DNA from: a virus
DNA: 45,138 nucleotides
Reading direction: 5' to 3' (one strand)
Virus record (IMG/VR): IMGVR_UViG_3300010158_000120
Location: 1-45,138 of that record
A program made the position numbers and the translations under genes. Numbering within the stretch: position 1 is the first letter of the stretch; the number at the start of each line of letters is the position of its first letter. Below are positions 9,941-27,454 of the stretch, in pieces. The notes below the pieces were generated by a model. The model was given only the letters and a program-made list of their open reading frames with translations. It was not told where the DNA came from and did no database searches.

Positions 9941-10246
9941 TTAGCTATCCCAACGAATAACGAAGGTCATATCTGTATTAGAAGCAATTGGATAAGGAGT
10001 AGATAACTTACCAACTACCAGTAACTCGTCGCTATCGTTGTATAATCCAACAGTGGTAGCGTAAGGCCTGAACTCTGATCCTGTCACTGCGTCTATGTAA
10101 GATCCTGAAGTACCTGATCTAATGGCGCTAGGATTAAGTGTGTAGTTGAAATCGTTCTCGTCTACTTGACATCTAACTTCTTTTTGATAGATTGTAGTTT
10201 CTGCTTGAAAAGACAGCGCGTAAGGTTCGTATTGGATAAATGGCAT
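9941..10246 (-). CDS. Small virion-type protein sharing a domain with the 357-aa tail protein, 101 aa
   Basis: The protein is essentially one beta-rich domain. It matches the C-terminal ~80 residues of the protein at 26372-27445: DFNYTLNPS then TTVGLYNDSDELLVVGKLS and a final IRW, against EYNYTSNPS, TTVGMYNNNNELLAVAKLS and IRVKLDW. The shared domain suggests it binds the same virion partner, perhaps as a decoration or fibre-tip protein. It lies far from the tail module, downstream of the glycan enzymes. Confidence 0.65.
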   Translation of the reverse strand: MPFIQYEPYALSFQAETTIYQKEVRCQVDENDFNYTLNPSAIRSGTSGSYIDAVTGSEFRPYATTVGLYNDSDELLVVGKLSTPYPIASNTDMTFVIRWDS

Positions 10247-10250
10247 ACTC

Positions 10251-10260
10251 TAATAAATAT
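10251..10260 (-). promoter_or_regulatory. Putative late-type box ATATTTATTA
   Basis: Only four bases separate this box from the ATG at 10246, so if it is a promoter the transcript would be nearly leaderless. It overlaps the stop of the large fusion gene. Confidence 0.4.
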
Positions 10261-13200
10261 TAGTTCTCTCGTCTTTCCTCTGGTTTGTAGTGAGCTATTC
10301 TATTGTGTAGGATAGGACTGGCTAGCAATACCGCAGGTTTTAAATTGCCTTTTACTGTTTCTTGGAACATATAACTCATCCAAGTCTGTTCGTAAGGGTG
10401 TGCCCATGTGGTATCTAAGAACATTTTTTGATTGCCGATCTTTCCGCATATAGTCGGCCAGTTCGCATAGTATACATCTCCTGTGATATAGCCAAGACCG
10501 TCTAGAAATTCTATTTTATCGAAAGAGGTTCTTGGACAGTTTGGATCTAATCCGTGTTCTGGTAACTTATCGTATTCTGGGTAGAATTTCGTTCTTACCG
10601 CTTGAGGAATATTGTACCATGACACTTGAATGTTATTATCCATATAAACTTCTGTAAAAGATAACTTTAAGAAATCAACTTCAGAAGACTCCATTATTTT
10701 TACAAGCTTATCGTATAAATTATCAACGTACATTCTAAATCCATTTCTACAGAATCCAAGTTCTTCTGGAGGATTCACACCCATATCGTCTTCTAAGAAT
10801 AGATAGTAATCGCTATCGGATTCTTGGAAGTGCTGAGCAGCTCTGAATCTACCACCATTAATGCCCGTATTTTCGTTTGTTATGATATGCTCGAAACCGT
10901 ACTTATCGCACAGCAGTTTATTCGCTTGTCTTGCTTCGTCGTTGGTAGAATTATCGATTAAAATATTTCTAGTGTTTGTAATAAACTTAGGATGCTTTAA
11001 CCAAGTTTGTATTGTGTGCTCTACTTGATGAGGAAAATTAAAGGTCAACATATAGATCGACACTTTTATTTTGTCAACGTCTATGAATCGCTTTGTCAAT
11101 TTAGCTCGGCCTTCTGGTATCGGTTCTAATTCTGCGACATCGTCTAATGTTTTTTGTACGAACTCTTGAATGTGCCCGTTAATACCAATTCTAGTGGTTC
11201 TAAATAATTCTGGATATCTGTGAGCTAATATAGAGAATAAACTTTCCTCTGTGCCCAAAAATCCTTCGTTTAAAGAATCGTTAGTTAAGTGCCAATAATA
11301 ACTGTTTGCTTCTTTGATTGCTTCTCTAGTTCCACCGAATAGTCCGCCTCTACATATCCACTCAACAGTTCCACCGGCCATTCTATTTAATGCATCCCAA
11401 TTAAATCCATGAACTTCACCAACTCCTTTATCAAAATATGGATAAGGATACTGAACGAATAGGAATGGATCAATATATTTTTCTAACTTATCAAAGAATC
11501 TGTCGTGTATTAATAGGTTGTAGTTAATTGTGTTTGAAATACCAGCATCTACCCATGCAAATTTTTCTGTATCGAATGGGTTGTATATGCTAGCGTCGTG
11601 TAGCAATGACATCTTAGACATTACAATCGGATTGTACCATTCAGAACTGCCTTGTGGAGAATCCTTTAACCAACCAGTTTGATTAATCCACGCATCGCTT
11701 GTTCTAATTGCTTGAGCTTTGTCCCAAAAATCGCCAAACATATTTTTAATGTCAGATAATTCAAAGTATTTTATTGCCGTATTAGATGGGCTTCTTCTTT
11801 GCCATACAAACTCTTCTAGCTCTTTAGGAATGAATAAAAATAAATTAATATCAACCTTCAACAATTTATCAAAGCATTCTAAATAGTGCTCAAAAGATCT
11901 ACCAGGTCTACCGATATCCCATAAACCGGTAACCATTGTTAAATTACTTTTTGTTTTTTTCCAATTATAATTTTCAGGTACTTGTTTTGCAAATTCAATG
12001 TCTATAGCTTCTATGTCTTGATTGCCAGTTTCGTACGCATAACCTCCGATTTCTAATTTCTCTTTTAAAGCGGCCAATTCCTCTGGTAAAAGATTCATGT
12101 GTTCTATTCTAATACACTTAGGTCTGTATTTAGTTAAGTCTAATTGTTTGAATATTTCCCAATCCATGCCTTCTGTATCTGTTAAGAACACATCTATTTT
12201 TTCTACGTTATTCTTTTTTAATATAGAATCGAGTGTAAGACAGTTAGCATTTATTTTTTCTGAGTAATTATCTTTTACAAAAATATCTCTTTCGTAATCT
12301 GATCCAAAACCGTTTCTTGGAGGAAATGCAGTTGCCATTCCTTTGTAACCTAATTGTAAATCGTATTCTTGTATTTTACTTTCTGGAACATACATCATCT
12401 CTAGAGTTCCATCGTAATCTGCCACTGCTACATTTTCAAATATGTGATTAGGTCTTGTACTTAAATTGCTTTTTAATTTCTCAAATACTTCAGGTATAGG
12501 TTCTACAAATATTCCACCCCAACTGTACATGTCAATGTAGCCTCTCATATCGTCGAAAGTAATACCGTCCATTGCACCCGCTTGAAATACAAATATGTCT
12601 TGAAAGTTTTTACCCAAATAATGTAATGCGATTGCTAAAGAGTCCTCGTATGGCTTTTCGTATCCGGCTCTTTCTATTGCACCTATTGGTTCCTCTTGAG
12701 GCGTAGATACATTTTCGTTATTAAAATCAGTTATTGATTCTAATAGACCTCTTCTAGAACCTGTCTTTTTAACTATTAAAAGATTACCATTAAAAAAATA
12801 TTCGTGATCTTTTATTACATTTAAAATCTCTTCTCTATAATCGATAAAAGCATTTAACGAATCTCCACCTCCACCTAAATCTTCAATAACATAAAATCCT
12901 CCGGTTCTAACACGACCAAAAAAGTTTTTTATTGTTTGAGTTTGAGCTGCAGATTGGTGTAAACCATCGTCGATAACAATATCAAACATTGAAGTGCTTA
13001 ATTGTTTATCGCACGCATGCTTGTCCAAAGAATCGCATATATAAGTAGAGATTCTGTCTTCTGTAAATTTACAATCTTCTGCAATATCTAATCCTGATAT
13101 TTCGGCTTTTGGAAAATAATCTCTCCAAACTCTTAACGATCCCCCTTGTACGTAATTTTCGTAGTAGATTTCTCTAATCTGTCTAAAGTGACCTTTCACG

Positions 13201-13346
13201 TTTATGTCAAGACTTCCAATTCCTATTTCTAATAAAGAAGTAACTTCGTTCTTAATATCGTTAAAAAGATATTCGTAACTTTTAGAGTAACCACTTATTG
13301 CCTTATCGGTACCGTACTGGTCCATCAGAGCATCTAAACTTTGCAT
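10260..13346 (-). CDS. Four-domain glycan-modifying fusion: methyltransferase, FkbM, HtrL-type and GT2-type glycosyltransferases, 1028 aa
   Basis: Four domains can be read. At 1-200 is a class I SAM-dependent methyltransferase (LLEIGIGS 38-45, GLDI, FDIVIDDGLH). At about 230-455 is an FkbM-type methyltransferase (FQAGAMDG 254-261, VEPIPEVFEKL, ENVAVAD). At about 465-735 is a HtrL/YibB (WlaTC) glycosyltransferase-like domain (LTMVTGLWDIGR, then FAWVDAG 596-602). At about 760-1028 is a GT-A family 2-like glycosyltransferase with the DxD-type motif LEDDM (851-855). FkbM and HtrL members act on sugars of glycolipids, O-antigens or glycoproteins. No membrane segment is visible, so a cytosolic acceptor is likely. 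It follows the carbamoyltransferase by six bases. The combined role, adding and methylating sugars, is inferred. Confidence 0.75.
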   Translation of the reverse strand: MQSLDALMDQYGTDKAISGYSKSYEYLFNDIKNEVTSLLEIGIGSLDINVKGHFRQIREIYYENYVQGGSLRVWRDYFPKAEISGLDIAEDCKFTEDRISTYICDSLDKHACDKQLSTSMFDIVIDDGLHQSAAQTQTIKNFFGRVRTGGFYVIEDLGGGGDSLNAFIDYREEILNVIKDHEYFFNGNLLIVKKTGSRRGLLESITDFNNENVSTPQEEPIGAIERAGYEKPYEDSLAIALHYLGKNFQDIFVFQAGAMDGITFDDMRGYIDMYSWGGIFVEPIPEVFEKLKSNLSTRPNHIFENVAVADYDGTLEMMYVPESKIQEYDLQLGYKGMATAFPPRNGFGSDYERDIFVKDNYSEKINANCLTLDSILKKNNVEKIDVFLTDTEGMDWEIFKQLDLTKYRPKCIRIEHMNLLPEELAALKEKLEIGGYAYETGNQDIEAIDIEFAKQVPENYNWKKTKSNLTMVTGLWDIGRPGRSFEHYLECFDKLLKVDINLFLFIPKELEEFVWQRRSPSNTAIKYFELSDIKNMFGDFWDKAQAIRTSDAWINQTGWLKDSPQGSSEWYNPIVMSKMSLLHDASIYNPFDTEKFAWVDAGISNTINYNLLIHDRFFDKLEKYIDPFLFVQYPYPYFDKGVGEVHGFNWDALNRMAGGTVEWICRGGLFGGTREAIKEANSYYWHLTNDSLNEGFLGTEESLFSILAHRYPELFRTTRIGINGHIQEFVQKTLDDVAELEPIPEGRAKLTKRFIDVDKIKVSIYMLTFNFPHQVEHTIQTWLKHPKFITNTRNILIDNSTNDEARQANKLLCDKYGFEHIITNENTGINGGRFRAAQHFQESDSDYYLFLEDDMGVNPPEELGFCRNGFRMYVDNLYDKLVKIMESSEVDFLKLSFTEVYMDNNIQVSWYNIPQAVRTKFYPEYDKLPEHGLDPNCPRTSFDKIEFLDGLGYITGDVYYANWPTICGKIGNQKMFLDTTWAHPYEQTWMSYMFQETVKGNLKPAVLLASPILHNRIAHYKPEERREN

Positions 13347-13352
13347 TTAAAA

Positions 13353-15026
13353 CTATTTAATTTTTTTTATGTAGTAATTTTCTAGGATCAAACAATCCAT
13401 TTGAGTGTCTTGTAATATTTTGAAAGCGTCTTTAATTGTAGAAAGAATTGGTCTTCCATCCAAATTAAAGGAAGTATTTAATAAAACTCCTACGCCATTT
13501 TGTTTTTCAAACTCGGTCAATAAATCGTACAGCCATTCGTTCTGTTCTCTTGTTACCGTTTGTACTCTAGCTGTACCGTCTACGTGAGTAATTGCAGATA
13601 GCTTCTCTTGCCACTCTTCTCTAACTGTTGGACAAAAACTCATCCATCTTGATTCTCCTTCCCATTCGAAGTACTTAGATACATCTTCCAATCTTACAAC
13701 TGGTGCAAACGGTCTGTACCACTCTCTGTGTTTTACTTTTTCGTTTAGCACGTCTTTCATATCAGCAATTGAAGGATTACATATAATACTTCTGTTACCT
13801 AATGCACGTGGACCGTGTTCTGCTCTGCCTCTTGCTACTCCAACTATTTTGCCTTCTAATATGTCTTTTGCTAAAACTTCTATATCACATTTAGTAGTAG
13901 TAAAGTTAACGCTACTGTCATGAATGTATTGAGACAAAGAATCGAAATCCTGTAAAGTTAAACCTGAATATGTAGCATCGAAAGCCTCTTGTGGTTTTAA
14001 TATATTTAACATAGAACCCAAAGCAATACCACAATCGTTAGGTCCAGGTCCAACAAATACTTTTTTACCAAACTCTTTTACCAATCTAGTATTGAATATA
14101 ATGTTTAAGCCACAACCGCCTGCTACGCATATAGGTAAATCAGGATACTGCTCCATGTAAGGTTTAACTACTTCTAAGAAAGCCTCTTCGAAAGCTCTTT
14201 GACTTGTTGCAGCTACGTTGTATTCTAATTCGTCTTTTAATCTGTCAAATACGTCAAACTTAACTCCAATCTTCTCTCCTAATGCATTGATCTTGGATTC
14301 AAAGTCGTAATAACCCGTAGTGTCCCAAGGCCCAAAGTGATTGCCGTTAGGATCGCTCTTATAAAATTCTATGAAATGAGGTACCCACTCTTCTACTACT
14401 TTTCCGTAAGAAGCAAGTCCCATAATTTTTCCTGGATAAACTAGGTTGCCTATGTTCAAAGGCTCTTTCTTTATAGAAGACAAATACTCACCAAATACCA
14501 TATAAGGAAAACCTAGATCGTAGTATATGTGAGGATTATTTTCTATTGGATTTATTACCGATTCTAATAACTTAGGAGATTCTCCTCTAATTGCGTGATA
14601 GATATTAAACTTACCGTCGTTTCCTCCACCGTCAACAGAGAATACTAAAGCCTCTTGAAAATTTGATTGATAAAAACAACCGGCTGCATGAGATTCGTGG
14701 TGTAAACAGTGATGATAGTTTTCTGCGTTAATGTATTTTTCTAATTCGTGTTTTTCTTCGATTATTACATCGCAGTTCAAGTAATAACAGTTTTCAAACT
14801 TGTCTATGTTTAATTTTTCGCGAATAAAATTTGGGATGTATTCTGCCAAGAATAATAGATCGTGGTTTTTAGGGCACATATACTGCGCCATACCACTATT
14901 TTTATAATTTAAAAAACGTTCTACTTCCAATACTAAAAGTATTTCCCCTTCTGATTCTACAACATATGCTGAGTTATGAGAACCATAAAATGCTATATTG
15001 GCTTTTATTTTATTGTTATTTTGCAT
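13353..15026 (-). CDS. NodU/CmcH/TobZ-family O-carbamoyltransferase, 557 aa
   Basis: Transfers a carbamoyl group from carbamoyl phosphate (via carbamoyl-adenylate) to a hydroxyl, usually on a sugar or antibiotic. Clear family marks are HHCLHHESHAA (105-115), with the metal-binding His residues of the N-terminal Kae1/YrdC-related domain, VDGGGNDG (131-138), the Gly-rich CVAGGCGLN and GPGPNDCGIALG, and the C-terminal domain with RAEHGPRALGNRSI and LNTSFNLDG. Length is normal and the protein looks complete. It sits between a putative glycosyltransferase (1-base overlap) and the methyltransferase/glycosyltransferase fusion, so a sugar substrate is most likely. Carbamoyltransferases also occur in phage DNA-hypermodification pathways, an alternative here. 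Confidence 0.9.
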   Translation of the reverse strand: MQNNNKIKANIAFYGSHNSAYVVESEGEILLVLEVERFLNYKNSGMAQYMCPKNHDLLFLAEYIPNFIREKLNIDKFENCYYLNCDVIIEEKHELEKYINAENYHHCLHHESHAAGCFYQSNFQEALVFSVDGGGNDGKFNIYHAIRGESPKLLESVINPIENNPHIYYDLGFPYMVFGEYLSSIKKEPLNIGNLVYPGKIMGLASYGKVVEEWVPHFIEFYKSDPNGNHFGPWDTTGYYDFESKINALGEKIGVKFDVFDRLKDELEYNVAATSQRAFEEAFLEVVKPYMEQYPDLPICVAGGCGLNIIFNTRLVKEFGKKVFVGPGPNDCGIALGSMLNILKPQEAFDATYSGLTLQDFDSLSQYIHDSSVNFTTTKCDIEVLAKDILEGKIVGVARGRAEHGPRALGNRSIICNPSIADMKDVLNEKVKHREWYRPFAPVVRLEDVSKYFEWEGESRWMSFCPTVREEWQEKLSAITHVDGTARVQTVTREQNEWLYDLLTEFEKQNGVGVLLNTSFNLDGRPILSTIKDAFKILQDTQMDCLILENYYIKKIK

Positions 15027-15958
15027 TAATTATATAATTTTTTTAGATCTATTTTTTCAAGCAAAACGCTTGCATTTTTATATTCGTTCCCGTTTTCTTT
15101 ATACCACTCGTGTCCATTTTTAGCTATAAATTTTATATAGTCTAGATCTTTTTTTACTTCGTTGTATCTTTCGTACATTCTATCAGATAATTGTTTATAA
15201 AAAATATCGCAGCTATTTTTGTCTAAATCTTCTATATCGACAGAAATATAATGATAGTCCGGTATTAATTCATTGTGAAATTTTACATTTAACTTTGGTC
15301 TAAATAAAGCTGTTCCTGTACCCATTATTTCTATATCTCTATTGCATATTTCTCCTACTCCATTTAAGCTTAAATTCACCCAATTACTCGATAATTCATA
15401 TATGTATTCCGAATAAAGCTTGTGATCAAATTCTATATTTAACACATTAAACCTATCGTCTTTAGTTAAATACTCTCTAAATAGATATACTCTTCCTCTA
15501 AACGGTAATTTTTCAGGTACTGTTCTTGCTATATTTTGTTTTTGTACTTCGATAACGATCTGATCAAAATCTGGTCTAAATGAAGTATAAGAAATTGGAG
15601 TATAATTAAAGTTATAGCTATTAGAAAAACAATCGAAATAACAAATTCCACAAGAAGTTAATATCTCTACACAATTTTCTATATCCCAATTGGTATTGAA
15701 CACATCTTTTAAATTATCCCAATAAGATACTATAATATATTTTTTATTCTCAGGATTTTCAATAATCATAAAGAAATGTCCATGCTTATTTCCAGGAGAA
15801 TACTGTCCAGGAGGTTGGTAAATTTTATCCATTTCAGAATTATCTATAAATTGAAATTCTATTTCTGGATATCTTTTAATTAGTTCTTCGTGAACAATAC
15901 TAAGAGCCTTTGCAAAAGAGTAAAGAGTATTATTAGAATAATAAATAATTAACTTCAT
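15026..15958 (-). CDS. Putative glycosyltransferase, CAP10/GT90-like C-terminus, 310 aa
   Basis: The N-terminal half is not recognised. The C-terminal third, with SLNGVGEICNRDIEIMG then ALFRPKL, PDYHYISVD and finally AKNGHEWY, resembles by eye the nucleotide-sugar-binding half of CAP10/GT90 and related GT-B glycosyltransferases, where a Gly-x-Gly-Glu turn is followed by a Cys-x-Arg-x-x-Glu helix. The match is tentative. I take ATG 15958 as the start; the frame extends to a TTG five codons upstream. Its stop overlaps the carbamoyltransferase start by one base, tying it to the glycan cluster. It may build or extend the sugar that is later carbamoylated. Confidence 0.5.
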   Translation of the reverse strand: MKLIIYYSNNTLYSFAKALSIVHEELIKRYPEIEFQFIDNSEMDKIYQPPGQYSPGNKHGHFFMIIENPENKKYIIVSYWDNLKDVFNTNWDIENCVEILTSCGICYFDCFSNSYNFNYTPISYTSFRPDFDQIVIEVQKQNIARTVPEKLPFRGRVYLFREYLTKDDRFNVLNIEFDHKLYSEYIYELSSNWVNLSLNGVGEICNRDIEIMGTGTALFRPKLNVKFHNELIPDYHYISVDIEDLDKNSCDIFYKQLSDRMYERYNEVKKDLDYIKFIAKNGHEWYKENGNEYKNASVLLEKIDLKKLYN

Positions 15959-16003
15959 TAAATCAGTTTTCAATATTTTGATAAAAATACTCCATTTTAT
16001 TTT

Positions 16004-17281
16004 TTAATTTATTGCGTGTTCGATTCTTTCTGCCCAACCAATCTCTTCAGAGAATCCCCAGAATACAACTCGTTTAGGCGTTTTATCGGTCAAGAAAAAC
16101 TCTTCGTAGTGTATCTGTTGGCCCTTATGCATGAAGTCTTCTAGTTGTTGACCGTCTATGTATTTGTGATTGATTGAATTTCCATTCTCATCGTCGAATG
16201 CAATCAAGATATGTTTGTAATCTTTTCTTGGAAAATCATGAGGATACACTGTAACCAAATGATAGAAAGATCCCATAAAAGATTGTTCCCATAATTCGTC
16301 GTCTGAAATGTAAGGATTAGGAGGATAGTTATTGTCTAGCGTATATTTCTGAACCGCCTTTCTTTGAAAATTAAAACCAGCGTATTTCTCGTAATCTCTT
16401 AAAGTTCTAACTGTTCCTAAATCGTAGCCAGTTAAATCAATGTTTGGATCCTCTTCAGTTCCTAGTAACACTCTAATCTTCTTTCTTGCATACTCTTGCT
16501 TTTGGAACCAATCAACGCCGAATTTAGCATCATCATCCCATTTCAACATGTTAGCTCTTTCTTCTCTCATAGTAGAATGCCAAACAACTAACTTGTGTGG
16601 ATGGAATAGATCGTATCCATGAGTGTAAGATCTAACTGTTAAGTTTAATTCCTCTCCACTAAAGTAGATATCTGGATCGTGTCTAATCTCCTTTGCCCAT
16701 TCAGCTCTAGCAAAACAGAAGTGGCCAGATAAAAACCTACTCATTGGTGGTTCAGTCATGTCTTGCCAACCGGTTAATAATCCTGGTCTAATAAAGATAG
16801 TTCCGTGAGGATAGAAGCAAGCAAAGGTCTGTTGCCATGGCTCCATAGTGCGTCCTCCTGGATCGTTAAATGGAGTATACAATGGCAAATAAGCCCCTAA
16901 GATTGGTTTGTAACCTTGAGCTTCTAAACCGCCATGCATTTCAAGCAAGGTCTCGTCCCAATTCTCTGCAAATCTGTGATGAGAATCTAATTGTAAAATG
17001 TAGTATTGATCTGTTAAAAGCTTCTCGTTAATTTGAGCTCTAGCCCATGGTAGACCTTGAGCTTCGGTATACAAAACGTCCATGATATGAAAACGTTTGT
17101 CTTCTCTGTACTCGTCTAGGTTATCGAAAAGATCTTCTGGGTTATACTGTCTGCAGATACCAAAGTGTACTCTTTTTGGGTACTTGGCGTTTTCTAGTGC
17201 TGACTTAATTGTTGGTACTAATTCTGGATCTCTATATGCTGGGAGATGCAACAGAATGGTTGGATGTTTACTTTTTGCCAT
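16004..17281 (-). CDS. GT60-like polypeptide GlcNAc-transferase, paralogue 1, 425 aa
   Basis: Resembles the GT60 / Pfam 'GlcNAc' glycosyltransferases, cytoplasmic GT-A enzymes that transfer GlcNAc from UDP-GlcNAc to proteins (Skp1 hydroxyproline in Dictyostelium). It opens with a strand and AYRDPELVPTI (15-25), has LDSHHRFAENWD (98-109) with the metal-binding DxH-type motif, then PMSRFLSGHF and FSGEELNLTVRSYTHGYDLF for acceptor and catalytic regions. The C-terminal ~90 residues form a separate domain shared with its paralogue at 22182, ending in WAERIEHAI. The gene lies directly after the Ser/Thr/Pro-repeat fibre genes on the same strand, which are obvious candidate substrates. The sugar and linkage are inferred. 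Confidence 0.75.
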   Translation of the reverse strand: MAKSKHPTILLHLPAYRDPELVPTIKSALENAKYPKRVHFGICRQYNPEDLFDNLDEYREDKRFHIMDVLYTEAQGLPWARAQINEKLLTDQYYILQLDSHHRFAENWDETLLEMHGGLEAQGYKPILGAYLPLYTPFNDPGGRTMEPWQQTFACFYPHGTIFIRPGLLTGWQDMTEPPMSRFLSGHFCFARAEWAKEIRHDPDIYFSGEELNLTVRSYTHGYDLFHPHKLVVWHSTMREERANMLKWDDDAKFGVDWFQKQEYARKKIRVLLGTEEDPNIDLTGYDLGTVRTLRDYEKYAGFNFQRKAVQKYTLDNNYPPNPYISDDELWEQSFMGSFYHLVTVYPHDFPRKDYKHILIAFDDENGNSINHKYIDGQQLEDFMHKGQQIHYEEFFLTDKTPKRVVFWGFSEEIGWAERIEHAIN

Positions 17282-17293
17282 AACAGAATTTAA

Positions 17294-17303
17294 AACTTTT
17301 ATT
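17294..17303 (-). promoter_or_regulatory. Partial leader AATAAAAGTT
   Basis: Ten of the twelve bases of the recurrent AATAAAAGTTAT leader, read on the minus strand, 12 bases before the ATG of the GT60-like gene at 17281. The remainder diverges, so it may be a distant copy or chance in AT-rich sequence. Confidence 0.3.
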
Positions 17304-17336
17304 GTATATTTTGCTGTTTATCTTTTTAGTAGAGCG

Positions 17337-17567
17337 TTATAAAGCTGCTACCACTGAATTTTTAATTGCTAAAAAAGACTCTTCGTCAGAAGCACTCCAC
17401 TTCGTAGAGTCCTGTGAATCTGTTACTTTTTTATTGTAGTAAGACTCTTTTATAACGTTATTGCCGCTACTTAGATTTGTTGTATAGTAGACTTCAACTA
17501 CTTGATAATTAGAACTATCTAACATCATGTAGACGTCTCCTGCAATACTTTTATAATATGTTTTCAT
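17337..17567 (-). CDS. Hypothetical small protein, 76 aa
   Basis: A Tyr/Ser/Asn-rich protein with a strand-rich first half (DVYMMLDSSNYQVVEVYYTT) and a C-terminal helix. Composition resembles the small beta-rich virion proteins of this phage. It is sandwiched between the largest repeat-fibre gene and a GT60-like gene. A fibre accessory or chaperone is possible; no family recognised. Confidence 0.55.
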   Translation of the reverse strand: MKTYYKSIAGDVYMMLDSSNYQVVEVYYTTNLSSGNNVIKESYYNKKVTDSQDSTKWSASDEESFLAIKNSVVAAL

Positions 17568-17586
17568 ATAATTTAAAATTTATTTT

Positions 17587-20364
17587 TTAAGGGCAAACAA
17601 CATTTGAATTATCAGATATACCTGTAATGTAAGCATCAGAGGTTACATAAACAGATGAATTGACTTGCGCATCACTGGATTCAGTACAGTTATATTGATA
17701 ATCTGATGCTCCACCGCTAACAGTAATTTGAGCTATAGCAGCATATTGAGCAACACTACCAACTTCCGTTTGTACTAAGTCCGTAGTTGATACATTGTAT
17801 ATAGTTCCAATAGCTCCATTAGTTGTTGTATAAACTACTTGTGTTCCGTTAACATAAATTGACATATATCCATTTCCCGTACCACCTGTTTTAGAATAAC
17901 TCCAACCTATTGAGAATACAGTAGGACTCGGAGATGCAGGAGGCGTAGGACTAGGAGTTGGTGTACTACTTGGAGCCGGTGTGTTGCTAGGTGCTGGTGT
18001 ATTACTTGGTGCAGGAGTTACTGAAACTGAAGGAGTACTGCTTACTGATACACTAGGAGTAACTGAAGGACTAGGAGAACTAGTTACAGACGCTGATGGA
18101 GTAACTGAAGCACTTGGAGTTCTTGTTACACTCACAGAAGGAGTAACTGATGGAGATGTCGTTACTGAAACTGTTACAGATGGCGTAACTGAAGGACTAG
18201 TTGTGCTAGTTATTGAGACGCTTGGAGTTACTGAGCTACTTGGAGTTCTTGTTATTGTAATACTAGGTGTAACCGTCGGAGTAATTGATATGCTTGGCGT
18301 TACGGTTACAGTTACAGAAGGAGTCACACTAATACTTGGTGTTGCTGATATACTTACCGAAGGCGTTACGCTAATACTAGGAGTTACCGATATGCTTACA
18401 GAAGGAGTAACAGATGCGCTAGGCGTAACAGTTACGGTTACCGAAGGAGTTACACTAATACTAGGAGTGGCTGTTATGGATACGCTCGGAGTAACTGAAG
18501 CCGAAGGAGTCGCTGATACCGCCGATGTTCCAGAAATAGAAGGCGTTACCGATATCGAAGGAGTAACTGTAGGCGTTACTGATACTGTTGGAGTAACTGA
18601 TATTGTTGGTGTTGTAGTCGGTGTTATGGTTATACTTGGAGTAACTGATACGCTCGCTGTTCTTGTAACGCTTGGAGTAACTGATATGCTAGGCGTCAAT
18701 GATACAGAAACGCTAGGCGTAATTGATATCGAAGGAGTTACAGAAACTGTAGGAGTTACTGATACTGCGGATGTAGTAGATATCGATGTAGATGGAGTTA
18801 CTGAAACACTTATACTAGGTGTAATCGATATACTAGGCGTAATCGATATTGAAGAAGTTGTAGTTACACTTGGAGTAACTGTTGGAGTCGCTGATACCGC
18901 CGATGTTCCAGAAATAGATGGAGTAACTGAAATTGAAGGAGTAACTGTAGGTGTTACTGATACAGTAGTCGTTGTAGATACACTCGGCGTCACTGAAACT
19001 GTAGGCGTAACAGATACTGCAGAAGTTGTAGATATAGATGTAGATGGAGTTACTGAAACAGTTATGCTTGGAGTAACTGATACTGTTGGTGTTACTGATA
19101 CCGCTGATGTTGTTGAAATAGACGGCGTTACAGAAATAGAAGAAGTTGTAGTTACACTAGGAGTTGTAGTTGGTGTTATTGATACCGCAGATGTTCCAGA
19201 AATAGATGGAGTTACCGATACACTTGGAGTAACTGAAATTGAAGGCGTAACCGTCGGTGTTATTGATACAGTAGTAGTTGTAGATACACTAGGGGTAGCA
19301 GAAATTCCAGGCGTAGTTGAAACAGATGGAGTAACTGATACACTAGGAGTAGCTGAAGGCGTTACTGAAGCTCCTCCTGCACTTGGTGTAGTAGAAATAC
19401 TTGGAGTCACAGAAACACTAACAGCGCCAGCACTTGGTGTAGCAGATGGAGTTGTTGTAGGTGTTACTGAAGCTCCACCAACTGAAGGAGTTGTTGATAT
19501 GCTTGGAGTTGCAGAAACTGTAGGTGTAACAGATACTATAGGAGTTGTTGATACACTTGGAGTTGCACTTGTACTAATACTAGGCGTGATAGAAATAGTA
19601 GGTGTTATCGATACTGTACGAGTTGGAGTAACAGATACACTATTTGTAACCGATATAGACGGAGTTACTGAAATGGTGGCTGTCGCTGATAAACTAGGCG
19701 TTACTGAGGTGCTAGGCGTTACCGATAAAGATGGAGTTACTGTAACCGAAGGAGTAGTTGTAGGAGTTATCGAAGTAGTGACGCTTGGAGTTACAGATAT
19801 GCTTGGCGTAACGGATGCAGATGGAGTACTAGTAACTGCTGGCGTTCCTGATACGGATGCGGTAACAGATATCGATGGTGTTATAGAAACTGATGAGGTC
19901 ACACTAACGCTAGGAGTAGTTGATACGGTAACGCTTGGAGTTATAGATGTGCTCGGTGTAACAGAAGGAGAAGCCGTAACAGACATTGAAGGAGTTACGG
20001 ATGTGCTACGCGTTACTGTAACCGATGGAGTAGTTGTGGGAGTAATAGAAACAGTAATGCTAGGAGTAATAGAAACGCTTGGTGTAACAGAAATAGACGG
20101 TGTAACAGAGATTGATGGAGTGGCGCTTGGACTAACTGATACAGATGCAGTAATAGAAGGCGTAACGGAAATTGATGGAGTAACAGAAGTAGAAGGTGTT
20201 GGAGAAAGTCCTGGTAATTCTGGCTGAGGCGCATCTAAAGCTCCATTATTATTAATTATGGTAGATTGTAACGCAAGATCTTGTCCTCTACCAGAAATCT
20301 TATTCTGATAATTTATTTTTTTGGATGATGTTCCAAATGTCGATCTTCTACCGTTTAATGCCAT
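17587..20364 (-). CDS. Mucin-like Ser/Thr/Pro-repeat fibre protein, 925 aa
   Basis: A short basic N-terminus (1-52, probably the virion anchor) is followed by about 760 residues built almost only of Ser, Thr, Pro, Val and Ile in SVTPS-type pentapeptides (about 53-816). A folded, strand-rich C-terminal domain of about 109 residues ends in NVVCP. The repeat region cannot form a normal globular core and should be an extended stalk dense in possible O-glycosylation sites, as in mucins. No signal peptide. It lies in the tail-fibre part of the late block with three similar proteins and two GT60-like enzymes. The C-terminal domain contains GTIYNV, as does the neighbour at 20394 (GYIYNV), perhaps a related receptor-binding fold. 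The long antisense frame across it is an artefact of the repeats. Confidence 0.8.
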   Translation of the reverse strand: MALNGRRSTFGTSSKKINYQNKISGRGQDLALQSTIINNNGALDAPQPELPGLSPTPSTSVTPSISVTPSITASVSVSPSATPSISVTPSISVTPSVSITPSITVSITPTTTPSVTVTRSTSVTPSMSVTASPSVTPSTSITPSVTVSTTPSVSVTSSVSITPSISVTASVSGTPAVTSTPSASVTPSISVTPSVTTSITPTTTPSVTVTPSLSVTPSTSVTPSLSATATISVTPSISVTNSVSVTPTRTVSITPTISITPSISTSATPSVSTTPIVSVTPTVSATPSISTTPSVGGASVTPTTTPSATPSAGAVSVSVTPSISTTPSAGGASVTPSATPSVSVTPSVSTTPGISATPSVSTTTTVSITPTVTPSISVTPSVSVTPSISGTSAVSITPTTTPSVTTTSSISVTPSISTTSAVSVTPTVSVTPSITVSVTPSTSISTTSAVSVTPTVSVTPSVSTTTTVSVTPTVTPSISVTPSISGTSAVSATPTVTPSVTTTSSISITPSISITPSISVSVTPSTSISTTSAVSVTPTVSVTPSISITPSVSVSLTPSISVTPSVTRTASVSVTPSITITPTTTPTISVTPTVSVTPTVTPSISVTPSISGTSAVSATPSASVTPSVSITATPSISVTPSVTVTVTPSASVTPSVSISVTPSISVTPSVSISATPSISVTPSVTVTVTPSISITPTVTPSITITRTPSSSVTPSVSITSTTSPSVTPSVTVSVTTSPSVTPSVSVTRTPSASVTPSASVTSSPSPSVTPSVSVSSTPSVSVTPAPSNTPAPSNTPAPSSTPTPSPTPPASPSPTVFSIGWSYSKTGGTGNGYMSIYVNGTQVVYTTTNGAIGTIYNVSTTDLVQTEVGSVAQYAAIAQITVSGGASDYQYNCTESSDAQVNSSVYVTSDAYITGISDNSNVVCP
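17917..20208 (-). repeat. Pentapeptide-coding repeat tract (SVTPS type), largest copy
   Basis: A run of 15-base coding units for SVTPS variants (SITPS, SVTPT, STTPS, SGTSA). The protein pattern is constant but third codon positions vary freely, so neighbouring units differ at the DNA level. Confidence 0.9.
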
Positions 20365-20393
20365 TTTATTCTTTATTATTTATCTTTTTAATA

Positions 20394-22142
20394 TTAACAA
20401 GCTCCTGCATATCCAGCATTTGCTGTAATATATAATGTTACGTTAGATGTTACTCTATACGCCTGACTTCCATAAGGATTTGCACTACAAGCGCTAGGAG
20501 CAGAAGGATATCCACTACCTACAGCCATATTAATTGCAGTACCAGCATTATCTACAGCTGGTCCTCCACCAGAACCATAATCACAAGCCAATTGTAATGT
20601 TGTTAAATTAGGAACGTTGTATATATAACCGACTAAACCACCGCTAGTACTAACAGCTCCTGATAATTGAGTATTACTAAACCATATATCATCGCTCCAC
20701 CAGATATATTGACTAGGGCTTAAAGCTCCGCTTGATTTAGCATATACTGTAACTGTCCAAGTAGGAGGTACTCCACTTACGCTAGGAGAAGGAGTGGAAC
20801 TCACTGCTGGTGTATTACTTGGTGCTGGTGTTACAGATATGCTAGGAGTTGCAGATATTGATGCGCTTGGTGTAACGGATACTGAAGGAGTAACAGATAC
20901 TGAAGGAGTAACTGAAACGCTTGGAGTAACCGATACTGAAGGCGTTACACTAATACTTGTAGTTACCGAAGGCGTTACTGATATCGATGGAGTAGCGCTA
21001 ATAGAAACAGAAGGCGTAACCGATGGTGATACAGTTACCGAAACAGTTACTGAAGGAGTTACCGATATACTAGGCGTAGCCGATATAGAAATGCTCGGAG
21101 TTACACTAATACTCGTAGTTACTGAAGGAGTTCTAGACGGCGTAATTGAAGAACTAGGCGTTTGAGTTACTGTTATAGATGGAGTTACGCTAATGCTTGG
21201 TGTCGCTGATATGCTTACAGAAGGTGTAACAGATACGGAAGAGGTAACTGTAATAGTTGGCGTAACTGTAATGCTTGGAGTCACACTAATACTAGGTGTA
21301 ACTGATATGCTAGGTGTTGCTGATATAGAAATGCTTGGCGTAACTGAAATACTTGGAGTTACACTAACACTAGGCGTATTAGATATAGAAATAGTAGGTG
21401 TTATCGATACGCTATTTGTAACAGACAAACTAGGAGTTACCGATGTACTAGGAGTTACCGATACTGATGGTGTTGTCGAAGGAGTCACCGTAGGAGTAAT
21501 CGATATGGTTGGTGTTATAGTAGGCGTTATAGATACACTAGGAGTTATTGAAACGCTGGCAGTTCTTGTAACACTTGGAGTAACAGAAGCGCTTGGAGTT
21601 ACTGATATCGATGGAGTTCTAGAAGGCGTAGCAGAAGGAGAAGGCGTTGCGCTATTTCCAGGAGTTACCGATATACTTGGAGTAACTGATATTGTAGGAG
21701 TGATAGATATTGTACGCGTAATACTTGGAGTTCTAGATGGCGTATGACTTATACTTGGAGTAATACTAGTACTTGGTGTATTAGTAGGTGTAATACTTGG
21801 AGTTCTAGAAGGGTTGATAGTATTCGTTGGAGTGATACTAACTGTTGGAGTGGCCGTTTTAGTAACTGTTATGCTAGGCGTTTTAGTAATTGATACACTT
21901 GGTGTAATCGTAGGCGTAGTAGAAAAACTAGGAGTTACAGAAAGGCTTGGAGTAGGAGACGGACTATTAGATAGCGGTAGAGGGCCTGGCATTGGACCCG
22001 GAAGACCCGTATTGCTGTTCTTTAATTCAGATTGCACGGCGAAAGGAACCTGTTTAGTTTTAGTTCTATCGCTGTAAAGAAAAACCTGGGTGGTATCGTT
22101 ATTAGGCGCTAGCTTTGATTTTTTGTGATCTCTTAATTCCAC
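20394..22142 (-). CDS. Mucin-like Ser/Thr/Pro-repeat fibre protein, 582 aa
   Basis: N-terminal ~60 residues include a folded part and a Pro-rich hinge (LPGPMPGPLPLSNSPSPTP). Then comes about 395 residues of SVTPS-type repeats (61-456) and a 125-residue strand-rich C-terminal domain with Trp pairs (YIWWSDDIWF), GYIYNV and a terminal Cys. I accept a GTG start at 22142 because it follows a late-type ATATTTATAC box by nine bases and no better ATG precedes the anchor region. Same architecture as the 925-aa protein, with a different anchor. It lies immediately downstream of a GT60-like gene. Confidence 0.8.
   Translation of the reverse strand: MELRDHKKSKLAPNNDTTQVFLYSDRTKTKQVPFAVQSELKNSNTGLPGPMPGPLPLSNSPSPTPSLSVTPSFSTTPTITPSVSITKTPSITVTKTATPTVSITPTNTINPSRTPSITPTNTPSTSITPSISHTPSRTPSITRTISITPTISVTPSISVTPGNSATPSPSATPSRTPSISVTPSASVTPSVTRTASVSITPSVSITPTITPTISITPTVTPSTTPSVSVTPSTSVTPSLSVTNSVSITPTISISNTPSVSVTPSISVTPSISISATPSISVTPSISVTPSITVTPTITVTSSVSVTPSVSISATPSISVTPSITVTQTPSSSITPSRTPSVTTSISVTPSISISATPSISVTPSVTVSVTVSPSVTPSVSISATPSISVTPSVTTSISVTPSVSVTPSVSVTPSVSVTPSVSVTPSASISATPSISVTPAPSNTPAVSSTPSPSVSGVPPTWTVTVYAKSSGALSPSQYIWWSDDIWFSNTQLSGAVSTSGGLVGYIYNVPNLTTLQLACDYGSGGGPAVDNAGTAINMAVGSGYPSAPSACSANPYGSQAYRVTSNVTLYITANAGYAGAC
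20775..21962 (-). repeat. Pentapeptide-coding repeat tract (SVTPS type), second copy
   Basis: About 395 codons of SVTPS, SISAT, TPTIT and related units. Some stretches have near-identical tandem SVTPS units (around 20850-20960), but most differ in synonymous positions. Confidence 0.9.
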
Positions 22143-22151
22143 GCGTGTTTT

Positions 22152-22161
22152 GTATAAATAT
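22152..22161 (-). promoter_or_regulatory. Putative late-type box ATATTTATAC
   Basis: Nine bases before the GTG start of the 582-aa repeat protein, in coding orientation. It matches the other late-type boxes in its first eight bases (ATATTTAT). Confidence 0.4.
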
Positions 22162-22181
22162 TCAAAGAATCAAATACAGCT

Positions 22182-23441
22182 CTATTCGTAATTTATCTTA
22201 TTTTCAATTCTGTCGCACCAGCCCTTAGATTCGCTGTGGGGCCATATTCTCCAAGAATCAGGAGCTATTGCGCTCTCAAAATCTCTCCAGATGTGTACAA
22301 ACTGATCGTCGGCTTCCTGGTTGCGCAATCCATCCATTTCTTGAATAGTCATATCCTGTCTGTATAAGTCCTTGCCATCAGCATCTAATAGAGCAATTGC
22401 GAATGTATCGTAATCGGCTTCTGTCAGAGCGCCTTTCCAAAGATCTATACAAACTTTTCTTTTGTGCATTAGACCTGATTCATAGTCGCCCTTTATTGGT
22501 GGTAGATCATTTGCTACGGTTTCTTTGTGAATTTGTCTTGTTTTGAATTTTAAACCTGCAAATTTCTCGTATTGTTCTAATGTTCTAACCGTACCGAATC
22601 CGTACTGAGCTAATGCTCTTCTTTGACATGGCGTACAAGGCACATCGTCCATTTCGAATAGCTTTCTAAACCTAGCGTAAGAAGCCTTGTCCAACTCTCC
22701 GTAAGTTTTGTGATCGTCCCAATGTCTTTGCTTTCCCTTTCTGGTGTATTCGTGCCAAACAATTGGTCTGTGTGGAGCGTATATGTCGTATCCGTGTGTG
22801 TAAGCTCTTGCGGCCAAACTAGTCTCTTCTCCATGAAAATAAAAATTAGGATCGTAAGGTACCTCTTTAACAAAACTTCCAACAGTGAATATAAAGTGAC
22901 CCGATAAAAATCTGCTTGGAACTGGCTCTGTTAAAGATTTCCAACCGTCAAAGTGATAAGGCTGTAAAAACACTGCACCTTCAGGTAAGAATCTCATAAT
23001 GTTTAATCCCCATACCTCTTGAACTCTGCCTTCAGGATCGTTCTCTGGAAAGTAGCCTGGCACGTAGGAGGAGATGATTGGTTTTTTATTGCCCTTGCAT
23101 CTAAAGTAATTAACGTAATCTTTTAGAGTGGTGTCCCAATTCTTTTCGAATCTGTGATGAGAATCTAGTTGAAAGTAATAGTCTTCTCCTCTATAAAATT
23201 CCTGTATTTTACTTCTAACCCAACAAACTCCGTTAGAATCGGTATGATCTATGTCAAGAATGGTGAATCTTGGATCTCTTACGTATTGGCTCAATGTGTC
23301 CCACTCGTCTTCATTAGAGTGCTGCCAACCAATACAAACGTGCAAATTTTCAGGCTCTGCACTATTTTCCAATAAATTCTTTAAAGTAGGTAAAAGTTCG
23401 GGGTCTCTATAGGACGCTATCGAAACGAAGATTTTTGACAT
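22182..23441 (-). CDS. GT60-like polypeptide GlcNAc-transferase, paralogue 2, 419 aa
   Basis: Same family as the protein at 16004. It begins IFVSIASYRDPELLPTL (4-20), very like cytoplasmic Skp1 GlcNAc-transferases, and carries QLDSHHRFEKNWD (91-103), PSRFLSGHF and FHGEETSLAARAYTHGYDIY. The C-terminal region shared with its paralogue follows TVRTLEQYEKFAG and ends with GWCDRIENKI. No signal peptide or membrane segment, so it acts in the cytoplasm before virion assembly. It sits between two Ser/Thr/Pro-repeat fibre genes. Two diverged copies suggest different acceptors or sequential steps. Sugar specificity is inferred from the family. Confidence 0.8.
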   Translation of the reverse strand: MSKIFVSIASYRDPELLPTLKNLLENSAEPENLHVCIGWQHSNEDEWDTLSQYVRDPRFTILDIDHTDSNGVCWVRSKIQEFYRGEDYYFQLDSHHRFEKNWDTTLKDYVNYFRCKGNKKPIISSYVPGYFPENDPEGRVQEVWGLNIMRFLPEGAVFLQPYHFDGWKSLTEPVPSRFLSGHFIFTVGSFVKEVPYDPNFYFHGEETSLAARAYTHGYDIYAPHRPIVWHEYTRKGKQRHWDDHKTYGELDKASYARFRKLFEMDDVPCTPCQRRALAQYGFGTVRTLEQYEKFAGLKFKTRQIHKETVANDLPPIKGDYESGLMHKRKVCIDLWKGALTEADYDTFAIALLDADGKDLYRQDMTIQEMDGLRNQEADDQFVHIWRDFESAIAPDSWRIWPHSESKGWCDRIENKINYE

Positions 23442-23495
23442 AACCCAATATTAATTAATTTTTATAACTTAATGAAATTTAAAAAGCAAGTAAGA

Positions 23496-25151
23496 TTATG
23501 AAAATATCCTTTTACAACTAGTAGTAGGTATACCAACATTTACTGTAGTAGCTCCTCCATTTACCGTGAAACTATCTCCGTTGTTATAATTAGTTCCATT
23601 TATAACAATTCCGTTTTGGAATTTGTAGTATGATCCTGCGGCTGCGTAGTCTGCATTGGCATAGAATTGGCCACTAAATCCTTTGGTTAAAGTGAAAGTA
23701 GGATAATTTGTAACACCATCTATAGATCCTGCGTTACATGCAGACGTAGTATATGTATACACACTTATACTATACTGATCTATCACTAAATCAGTACCTA
23801 TAGGAGTGCTAAGGGTCAAGCCTATAAATCCGGAACCAAGAGAATTATAGTAATCGTTTAATGCAAGAGTAGTAGACGCAGGATAAGTAAAGCCTGTAGT
23901 GCCTCTTACGTAATAAGTTCTACCTCCAGTAAGCGTAAAATTAGTATTTATGCTATATGTGGTATAATTAGTAGTGCTATTGATTATAGTATTACCAGCG
24001 CTATCAGTAATAGTTAAATTTCTTGTAGAAGTTCCAAAAGCTGGAGGAGCATAAGCCGAATCTCCTGAAGCTTGCGCATATATAGATTGATCTTGATATT
24101 GAGTGCCTCCAACCAACACATCTCCAGGAGTACTGAATACATCATTAACAAGATCTGTGCTCGTAGTATTGTTACGTATATATACATTGTTGTCTAAGAA
24201 TACAGTTCCATCGTTGGCTTCTGTATTTCTGTAATAAAGAACCGCGACCAAAGGAGTTACAGATACTGAAGGCGTGGCGGTTATAGATACACTAGGAGTT
24301 CTCGTTAAAGATACGCTAGGAGTTACTGATATAGAAGGCGTAACTGATACAGATGAAGTTACAGATACGCTTGGAGTTACGGATATACTAGTTGTAACTG
24401 AAGGAGTAACTGATAAACTCGGAGTAACTGAAGGAGAAGGCGTTACTGATAAGCTAGTTGTAACGGAAGGCGTAGCTGATTTTGAAGGCGTTACTGATAA
24501 ACTAGGCGTTATAGATATACTAGTTGTTGCAGAAGGAGTAACTGTCGGAGTAGCGCTAACAGTAATTGATGGTGTAACAGATACTCCCGGTGTTACTGAT
24601 ACAGATTTTGTAACAGATATAGAAGGAGTAACTGAAGGAGAAGCAGTTACAGATACACTAGGCGTTACAGATATTGACGGCGTAGCACTAATAGAAGAGG
24701 AAGGAGTCACACTAATAGAAGGAGTTGCACTTATACTTACAGATGGAGTAGCGCTAATACTTACTGATGGAGTAATTGAGAACGAAGGAGTTACTGTAAT
24801 ACTAGGTGTAACCGATACTGATGGAGTAACTGAAACAGAAGGCGTAACTGATACAGAAGGCGTTGCAGAAATAGAAACGCTAGGAGTAACTGAGTAAGAC
24901 GGAGTAACGGAAGGAGAAGGCGTAGGACTTAATGGTACAATATATTTAAACATTGTATTTAAGCCGCAAGGATCTTGGTTTTCTAGTACTATATATTGAG
25001 CTGCATCAGGAACAGAAACAAGATGGCCGTCCAATAAATCGTCTAATGTAACGTTTAATTCAACAATGTTCAAGAAACTATCCCAATAGATATTAAATGG
25101 ACCTACAGCATTTCCGTATTGAGTAACTCTTATGTATATCGATTGTGCCAT
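23496..25151 (-). CDS. Mucin-like Ser/Thr/Pro-repeat fibre protein, 551 aa
   Basis: A folded N-terminal domain (1-74, strand-rich, with VTQYGNAVGPFNIYWD and a PCG turn) is followed by about 225 residues of SVTPS-type repeats (75-300), then a large C-terminal region of about 250 residues that looks beta-sandwich-like and rich in Thr/Asn/Tyr, ending CKRIFS. The C-terminus is twice the size of those in the other repeat proteins and may be the receptor-binding part. The preceding gene, 18 bases upstream, has the same stalk type; the next gene downstream is a GT60-like enzyme. Confidence 0.8.
   Translation of the reverse strand: MAQSIYIRVTQYGNAVGPFNIYWDSFLNIVELNVTLDDLLDGHLVSVPDAAQYIVLENQDPCGLNTMFKYIVPLSPTPSPSVTPSYSVTPSVSISATPSVSVTPSVSVTPSVSVTPSITVTPSFSITPSVSISATPSVSISATPSISVTPSSSISATPSISVTPSVSVTASPSVTPSISVTKSVSVTPGVSVTPSITVSATPTVTPSATTSISITPSLSVTPSKSATPSVTTSLSVTPSPSVTPSLSVTPSVTTSISVTPSVSVTSSVSVTPSISVTPSVSLTRTPSVSITATPSVSVTPLVAVLYYRNTEANDGTVFLDNNVYIRNNTTSTDLVNDVFSTPGDVLVGGTQYQDQSIYAQASGDSAYAPPAFGTSTRNLTITDSAGNTIINSTTNYTTYSINTNFTLTGGRTYYVRGTTGFTYPASTTLALNDYYNSLGSGFIGLTLSTPIGTDLVIDQYSISVYTYTTSACNAGSIDGVTNYPTFTLTKGFSGQFYANADYAAAGSYYKFQNGIVINGTNYNNGDSFTVNGGATTVNVGIPTTSCKRIFS
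24252..24929 (-). repeat. Pentapeptide-coding repeat tract (SVTPS type), third copy
   Basis: About 225 codons of SVTPS, SISAT and SVTAS units, again with variable synonymous positions. Confidence 0.9.
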
Positions 25152-25168
25152 TTACTTTCTATCTTTTA

Positions 25169-26362
25169 TTAACATGTTGAAATTTGAACTCCAACCACAC
25201 CAGAACTATTTACTGCGTATATCTTATTATCGCTACCTGCAATAGCAGTTAAGTTCGTCCATGGAGTATTGTAAGATTGATACAATGTTATACCTGTTGT
25301 AATGTAAGGTGCCGTAGTTACAGTGTTAGGCAAGTAAACGTTTGAAGCATTCGCTACTGGGAATCCTGAAGACTGTATAAAGCACGGTGTATAGTAATAG
25401 CCCAATGAATTTCCTACCATTGGAGATAAAGAAACTGTTGGAGTTATTGTTACACTAGGCGTTCTAGTCGGTGTTATACTAGGCGTAATCGATATAGTAG
25501 GAGTTATACTTACTGTAATGCTTGGAGTAACCGAAGGTATAGTTCCCGGTGAAGTTGATGGAGTCACTGTAGGCGTAACTGTTGGAGTAGTAGTTACAGT
25601 TGGAGTAGCTGTAGGAGTTATTGTTACGCTAGGAGTTACAGACACAGTCACAGTTACAGAAGGCGTTCTCGTAGGTGGAGGTGGTGGTGTTGCTGTTACC
25701 GTAGGTGTCAATGATGGAGTAACTGTAGGCGTTAAGAACGGAGTCAAACTTATACTTGGTGTAGGTGTTGGACTTGGTAAAATTGCTTGAATGTAAAAAT
25801 CAAAAGTGGGATCTTGAATTAAACATATATAAGTGGGATCAGTAAAAGTAATAATTCCTTGCGAGTATATTACGTTTCCAACTTTTTTATTATCGACCAA
25901 AATGTCTATAACATTTCCATTACCGTCGTCTGTTAAATGATAGTTAGTACTTAATGGATTTGTAGGTAGTATGTGTAAACTATTTCTAGAGATCTGCTCG
26001 CCAAACTGTTTTCTTGGAATATAGAAAAAAGAGACTTGATCGTTGGAACCAGTGGGAAAATATCTAGCGTCTTCGTCACCGCTTCCAGATGCAGCTGTAG
26101 ATTGATCGTAAGAATCGTAAGCGCTACCCGACTTTAACAAAGAACCGGAAATAAAGTTCTTGTAATAAAGCTGTTTGATTAATTGGTATTTTAGAGCATT
26201 ATTATCCAAAGATCCAGTCACGGTCATAGGATGATAGAAGCCCCTATTTATAGTTATTCCTGCGTTGTCAAATGATTCACTTGTATAAGATGCAGAATAC
26301 TTTAATTTAATAGGAGCCGAAGATATGTCTGAAAACCTTATCGTATTCTTCGATCTGCTCAT
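25169..26362 (-). CDS. Virion structural protein with Ser/Thr/Pro-repeat insert, 397 aa
   Basis: A large folded N-terminal domain (1-194) carries the pattern FFYIPRKQFGEQISRNSLHI, DDGNGNVID, then VGNVIYSQGIITFTD, which I recognise from virion proteins of T4-like environmental phages. It is followed by about 120 residues of Thr/Pro/Val-rich repeats (195-315, more TVTPT than SVTPS) and an 82-residue C-terminal domain ending in a Cys. This protein links the conserved tail module upstream with the repeat fibres downstream, and probably anchors to the baseplate or tail. Ten bases separate it from the preceding gene. Confidence 0.75.
   Translation of the reverse strand: MSRSKNTIRFSDISSAPIKLKYSASYTSESFDNAGITINRGFYHPMTVTGSLDNNALKYQLIKQLYYKNFISGSLLKSGSAYDSYDQSTAASGSGDEDARYFPTGSNDQVSFFYIPRKQFGEQISRNSLHILPTNPLSTNYHLTDDGNGNVIDILVDNKKVGNVIYSQGIITFTDPTYICLIQDPTFDFYIQAILPSPTPTPSISLTPFLTPTVTPSLTPTVTATPPPPPTRTPSVTVTVSVTPSVTITPTATPTVTTTPTVTPTVTPSTSPGTIPSVTPSITVSITPTISITPSITPTRTPSVTITPTVSLSPMVGNSLGYYYTPCFIQSSGFPVANASNVYLPNTVTTAPYITTGITLYQSYNTPWTNLTAIAGSDNKIYAVNSSGVVGVQISTC
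25418..25780 (-). repeat. Thr/Pro-rich coding repeat tract, fourth copy
   Basis: About 120 codons of TPTVTPS-like units. Shorter and less regular than the three other tracts, with a Pro run (PPPPP) near the N-terminal third. It could be the ancestral linker that was expanded in the others. Confidence 0.85.
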
Positions 26363-27445: not shown

Positions 27446-27454
27446 ATTCTAATA

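Follow-up and report, generated by a model that had tools for sequence, protein, structure and literature searches.

A probable phage-encoded mucin-type O-glycosylation island in a myovirus tail-fibre locus

Why would a phage interleave genes for long Ser/Thr/Pro-repeat proteins with genes for glycosyltransferases? This question is raised by a minus-strand run of nine genes at positions 10260-26362 of the window, the 45,138-base IMG/VR virus record of a freshwater phage analysed here, of which a near-identical fragment (L003) was found in another sample. A sequence-only reading had described four virion-type repeat proteins of 925, 582, 551 and 397 aa in this region, and a check of the open reading frames located all four on the minus strand where they had been placed. 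The intergenic gaps range from -1 to 54 bp, with the exception of 305 bp ahead of GT60-B. The features, given in the order of transcription, are as follows:

26372..28114, minus: two tail genes (357 and 219 aa) that flank the island upstream, in synteny with gp106 and gp107 of phage immuto
25169..26362, minus: f397, tail protein with an N-terminal virion domain (residues 1-182) and a 138-residue Ser/Thr/Pro stalk
23496..25151, minus: f551, N-terminal domain, 242-residue SVTPS stalk and C-terminal domain of about 246 residues
22182..23441, minus: GT60-A, polypeptide GlcNAc-transferase-like (PF11397, E 5e-71; DxH at 93-95)
20394..22142, minus: f582, 437-residue SVTPS stalk and C-terminal domain
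17587..20364, minus: f925, 790-residue SVTPS stalk and C-terminal domain of about 95 residues
16004..17281, minus: GT60-B, divergent paralogue of GT60-A (PF11397, 2e-49; DxH kept)
15026..15973, minus: GTx, glycosyltransferase of GT-B fold by predicted structure
13353..15026, minus: O-carbamoyltransferase of the NodU/TobZ type (PF16861, 1.4e-65; TobZ, 1.5e-43)
10260..13346, minus: four-domain fusion of methyltransferase, FkbM methyltransferase, HtrL_YibB and GT2, by profile matches
9941..10246, minus: 101-aa protein, a homologue of the C-terminal portion of immuto gp105 (E 9e-24), at the island's downstream edge

The four stalks consist of 64-67% Ser, Thr and Pro, contain 804 Ser/Thr residues in total, and have 4-9 charged residues each, almost no aromatic residues and no Cys; they thus present the long Ser/Thr/Pro-rich repeat domain by which mucin-type O-glycoproteins are recognized. 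The general O-glycosylation system of Bacteroidota also places O-glycans on bacterial proteins, as is proposed here for the stalks, but the D-S/T motif that the sequence-only reading gave for that system occurs 0 times in the four stalks, in agreement with its statement that the repeats lack an Asp before Ser/Thr. In f925, 33 of the 37 SVTPS copies differ in DNA sequence, with a divergence of 0.59-0.64 at third codon positions compared to 0.21-0.30 at positions 1 and 2. Nearly all of the copies differ, mostly at third positions, and so the amino-acid pattern is kept by selection; this synonymous divergence rules out a recent expansion or duplication of a DNA repeat. Three plus-strand frames (17981-20227, 21193-21747 and 24274-24897) were rejected as genes, being antisense by-products of repeat codons that give no antisense stops. 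The N-terminal domain of f397 is common to at least 10 other phage repeat proteins, and that of f551 also recurs among such proteins. Separately, three phage records without a GT60 match (L039, L050 and L063) contain ORFs of 3665-4628 codons with more than 700 TP[ST] motifs.

Two GT60-like enzymes had been proposed, and both were borne out by the Pfam profile PF11397, with scores of 240 bits for GT60-A and 169 bits for GT60-B relative to a cut-off of 21 bits. Both enzymes keep the sequence QLDSHHR, which contains the DxH motif that takes the place of DxD in GT60 and GT27 (PMC7185993), and D93 and H95 were invariant among 38 aligned sequences. The Trypanosoma cruzi counterpart initiates mucin glycans on Thr (PMC3769586) and has been grouped in GT60 together with Skp1 Gnt1 (PMC6939170). 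As background it had been stated that GT60 enzymes are cytoplasmic, which does not hold for the family as a whole, as the mucin-type members of T. cruzi and Dictyostelium act in the Golgi (PMC3769586). As judged by profile and DxH motif, the window's enzymes share a family with TcOGNT2, Dictyostelium Gnt2 and Skp1 Gnt1; TcOGNT2 initiates the glycosylation of Thr-rich mucins, and the candidate acceptors in the window are Ser/Thr/Pro stalks. Unlike the protist enzymes, those of the window are phage-encoded paired paralogues in a tail operon, with no Golgi.

No sequence relative of GT60 was found in the PDB, and therefore a comparison of folds was used. The predicted structure of GT60-A (pLDDT 92.7) had as its 28 best PDB matches polypeptide GalNAc-transferases, some of them complexed with mucin peptides; the TM-scores, near 0.5, indicate that what the structures have in common is the catalytic core. 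Polypeptide GalNAc-transferases are the starters of mucin glycosylation. From the family and the GT27-like model, it is predicted that GT60-A and GT60-B probably transfer GlcNAc to polypeptide. In a tree of 172 GT60 sequences the two enzymes fell into distinct clades, that of GT60-B being supported, and in many related phages a second GT60 gene directly follows the first, which suggests that the paralogues may have complementary site preferences.

The genes downstream of GT60-B also correspond to what had been described, namely a putative glycosyltransferase, an O-carbamoyltransferase and a fusion of methyltransferase, FkbM, HtrL and GT2 parts. GTx (315 aa, listed with a TTG start; an ATG lies 5 codons downstream) has no Pfam match, and its model (pLDDT 88.6) has a GT-B fold with PDB matches to POGLUT2, EXT1/2, BshA, SdgB and A075L. 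The last of these is from chlorovirus PBCV-1, in which the virus encodes the glycosylation of a structural protein, as is proposed here, but PBCV-1 differs in being a eukaryotic virus with capsid glycans and an unrelated gene set. The carbamoyltransferase contains both its N- and C-terminal domains (matches to PF16861 and PF02543, the second at 6e-24) and scores below the NodU equivalog cut-off. In the fusion, the N terminus matches a phage methyltransferase family (7e-11), followed by FkbM (2.5e-17), HtrL_YibB (1.1e-11) and a GT2 match that is slightly below the cut-off (4e-4, 20.7 bits).

The location of the island was evaluated by comparison with Flavobacterium phage immuto. The window genes before the island are collinear with immuto tail genes (73% identity to gp107 and 45% to gp106), the N-terminal domain of f397 weakly resembles immuto gp105 in its first half (32% over 109 aa, E 2e-6), and the 101-aa protein resembles gp105 in its second half (38% identity). 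The next genes of immuto in this order are annotated as tail fibre and tail spikes, and therefore the island occupies an adhesin (tail-fibre/spike) locus. Both immuto and Microcystis phage Mel-JY01 lack repeats in this region and a GT60 match. Upstream of the start sites in the window the DNA is AT-rich and shows no clear Shine-Dalgarno sequence, a usual pattern in Bacteroidota, which is the likely host phylum of close relatives (immuto, Flavobacterium). At the edge of the island (9448-9918) there is a SegE-like GIY-YIG homing endonuclease, syntenic with immuto gp100, that could be a helper of island movement.

The sequence-only reading had proposed a survey of other phage genomes for the co-occurrence of SVTPS repeats and GT60 genes. 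This was evaluated in viral contigs sampled by GT60, by repeats, by a baseplate gene or at random and annotated identically; the loci sampled by GT60 were ranked according to their similarity to the enzyme of the window itself, a ranking that favours close relatives, and the survey loci are related and partly fragmentary. Repeat ORFs within about 10 kb were found at 45 of the 92 loci sampled by GT60, at 6 of the 80 sampled by a baseplate gene and at 0 of the 85 sampled at random (Fisher p ~3e-16 for GT60 relative to random, a value that is overstated because the loci are related). When whole records were searched, 12 of the other 47 GT60 records proved to have repeats outside the locus, including one (G007) for which a reversed control pattern gave as many matches, and 50 random records gave two isolated single matches; a repeat array was not found in 35 of the 92 GT60 records, many of them fragments. 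In the opposite direction, GT60 was present in 14 of 50 repeat-bearing records compared to 0 of 50 random records, and, for records of at least 50 kb, in 14 of 25 compared to 0 of 12 (p ~0.0009). The linkage therefore stood against the controls, but GT60 is not universal among repeat phages: it was absent from 11 of the 25 larger repeat-bearing records, about half, and so repeats do not always accompany a GT60 system.

In 14 of 33 loci a repeat gene directly precedes GT60 in the same orientation and ends at most 100 bp before it, whereas 3.7 such loci were expected and the maximum in 1000 permutations was 10; this adjacency was not significant after clustering at 60% identity, where the test loses power. 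Descent from a single inherited lineage was rejected as the source of the association, although adjacency behaves in this way on clustering, because on the tree of 172 GT60s the label for repeat association must change no fewer than 17 times. HtrL_YibB was found in 13 of 14 GT60-positive large repeat records, 0 of 11 GT60-negative and 0 of 25 random records, and carbamoyltransferase in 4 of 14, 0 of 11 and 0 of 12, respectively; general GT2 genes separated the groups less cleanly. The HtrL-GT2 pair is kept in 73 of 92 GT60 loci, and the recurrent order is repeat protein, GT60, GT60, GTx, carbamoyltransferase and methyltransferase/FkbM-HtrL-GT2.

A similar set of genes occurs in bacteria. In GTDB genomes of Bacteroidota, Gemmatimonadota, Acidobacteriota and Myxococcota, genes for GT60 with HtrL-GT2 were found next to genes for Ser/Thr/Pro proteins (partner proteins at L388:8504-9649, L389:8947-9735, L387:2684-3412, L405:8466-10007, L408:8815-9933, L395:9155-9874 and L458:6720-7478). 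Most of these contigs are MAGs; that of Jiulongibacter, where carbamoyltransferase and FkbM are added, is from an isolate. In Myxococcota, GT60, HtrL_YibB and GT2 form one polypeptide of 969-1210 aa (L400, L408:9995-12901, L429 and L433), which ties HtrL_YibB, a family of unknown function, to a GT60 pathway. These gene pairs and fusions argue that GT60 and HtrL-GT2 would form one pathway with a Ser/Thr/Pro protein as its substrate. As judged by eye and with no signal-peptide predictor, most of the bacterial Ser/Thr/Pro proteins have twin-arginine-like N termini; in those of Gemmatimonadota the twin-arginine stretch is internal, after a PqqD-like domain. The Tat system exports proteins that are completed in the cytoplasm, and such export would fit cytoplasmic enzymes of a GT60 pathway. 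We lean towards a widespread prokaryotic mucin-type pathway (GT60 and HtrL-GT2, with HtrL_YibB as one of its glycosyltransferases) that is common to phage tail stalks and bacterial Tat-exported Ser/Thr/Pro proteins. A Saprospiraceae Ser/Thr/Pro protein also bears a Por-secretion C-terminal domain.

Virion glycosylation by phages is already known, and the mucin-type GT60 system appears to be new. Mycobacteriophage glycosylation is not known to involve mucin-like repeat acceptors or GT60. Mycobacteriophage glycosyltransferases are predicted or reported to glycosylate virion proteins of the capsid and tail (PMC11256854). In the open-access literature, which was the scope of the search (subscription papers and preprints lay outside it), we found no description of a phage with GT60 or of phage virion glycosylation with Ser/Thr/Pro repeats. 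In a phage collection, GT60 was present only in XacN1 and the Stenotrophomonas phages CM1 and RAS14. Carbamoyltransferase and HtrL-GT2 genes adjoin GT60 in XacN1 and RAS14, and proteins with Ser/Thr/Pro stretches are encoded within about 15 kb (about 12 kb in XacN1). XacN1 resembles the window in having GT60, carbamoyltransferase and HtrL-GT2 in one block, and differs in being a jumbo phage of another lineage with a single GT60 and a less compact arrangement. In the accessible part of the XacN1 report, at least two glycoproteins were found by proteomic analysis and phage glycosyltransferases are already proposed for them, with the proteins and sites not named there (PMC5852040).

We estimate a probability of about 0.77 that the region is a phage-encoded mucin-type O-glycosylation island in a myovirus tail-fibre locus. 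The recurrence of this gene set in many further phages and in some bacteria makes it probable that viruses build sugar-coated, mucin-like tail stalks. The core of the earlier proposal, mucin-like stalks encoded with enzymes that probably glycosylate them, is well supported by family, fold, co-occurrence, adjacency, synteny, bacterial counterparts and fusions. From the genes present, their families and predicted folds, the statistical linkage, the conserved operon order and the tail-fibre synteny, we infer what the enzymes do, which sugars they use, in which order they act, where in the virion the products lie and what advantage they give, as follows. In the cytoplasm of the infected cell, both GT60s would start glycans on Thr/Ser of the SVTPS stalks with a sugar that is probably alpha-GlcNAc, taken from host UDP-GlcNAc; extension would be the task of GTx and the HtrL-GT2 enzyme, and the carbamoyltransferase and the methyltransferase/FkbM domains would cap the glycan. 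The GlcNAc-initiated, extended, methylated and carbamoylated glycan of the sequence-only reading is thereby retained as a prediction from enzyme families. Once modified, the proteins would form long hydrophilic stalks attached to the tail, in the case of f397 by the N-terminal domain that it has in common with other phage tail proteins, with stiffness, protease resistance, adhesion or shielding as possible benefits. If this is true, a phage version of mucin exists in which acceptor stalks and the enzymes that glycosylate, extend and cap them are encoded in one operon in many environmental phages. Phage genes for GT60, HtrL_YibB and carbamoyltransferase, which are usually classed as auxiliary metabolic genes, would gain a concrete function that can be tested, XacN1 being a cultured system in which glycoproteins have been seen but not explained. 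Protein glycosylation in prokaryotes would also be linked to the enzyme family by which protists initiate mucin glycosylation.

Phage glycosyltransferases that act on host surface glycans are common and HtrL/YibB lies near LPS genes in E. coli, and so the enzymes might instead modify the host surface, for receptor masking or superinfection exclusion, with the stalks being unmodified spacers nearby by chance. The many repeat phages without GT60 also point in this direction and leave other fates of the repeats possible, but we regard this explanation as unlikely because GT60 is a polypeptide-acting family with a GT60-A model like polypeptide GalNAc-transferases, the enzyme genes lie within the tail operon and adjoin repeats in diverse phages, and the bacterial counterparts pair the same enzymes with Ser/Thr/Pro proteins.

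Glycosylation of other virion proteins (capsid or sheath), with the stalks being incidental, would account for the GT60 phages that have no repeat array and for the bacterial GT60s in type VI secretion clusters; it is rather improbable given the preferential adjacency of repeats to GT60 and the dense, obvious acceptor that the stalks provide. The membership of Skp1 Gnt1 in GT60 raises a further route, in which repeat prolines are first hydroxylated and GT60 then adds GlcNAc to hydroxyproline, and Mel-JY01, a relative in its tail genes, has an annotated prolyl 4-hydroxylase gene (L384:3075-3674). This route was rejected as very improbable, because prolyl-hydroxylase-type genes were found in 2 of 27 GT60 records (one under the family cut-off) compared to 3 of 12 random records and are therefore not enriched with GT60.

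In Enterobacterales and Burkholderiaceae, GT60 genes were observed behind a fimbrial-type gene within type VI secretion clusters that contain TssF, TssG and ImpA (L443:4831-11329, L409:4787-18964, L423, L415 and L418), and VgrG proteins encoded near these genes have long C-terminal tails of Thr/Pro or Ser/Pro, (TP)n. In Azospirillum, a GT60 gene and the gene for a tail-sheath protein with Ser/Thr/Pro inserts (L407:13121-15172) are 2 kb apart, in what appears to be a contractile injection system.
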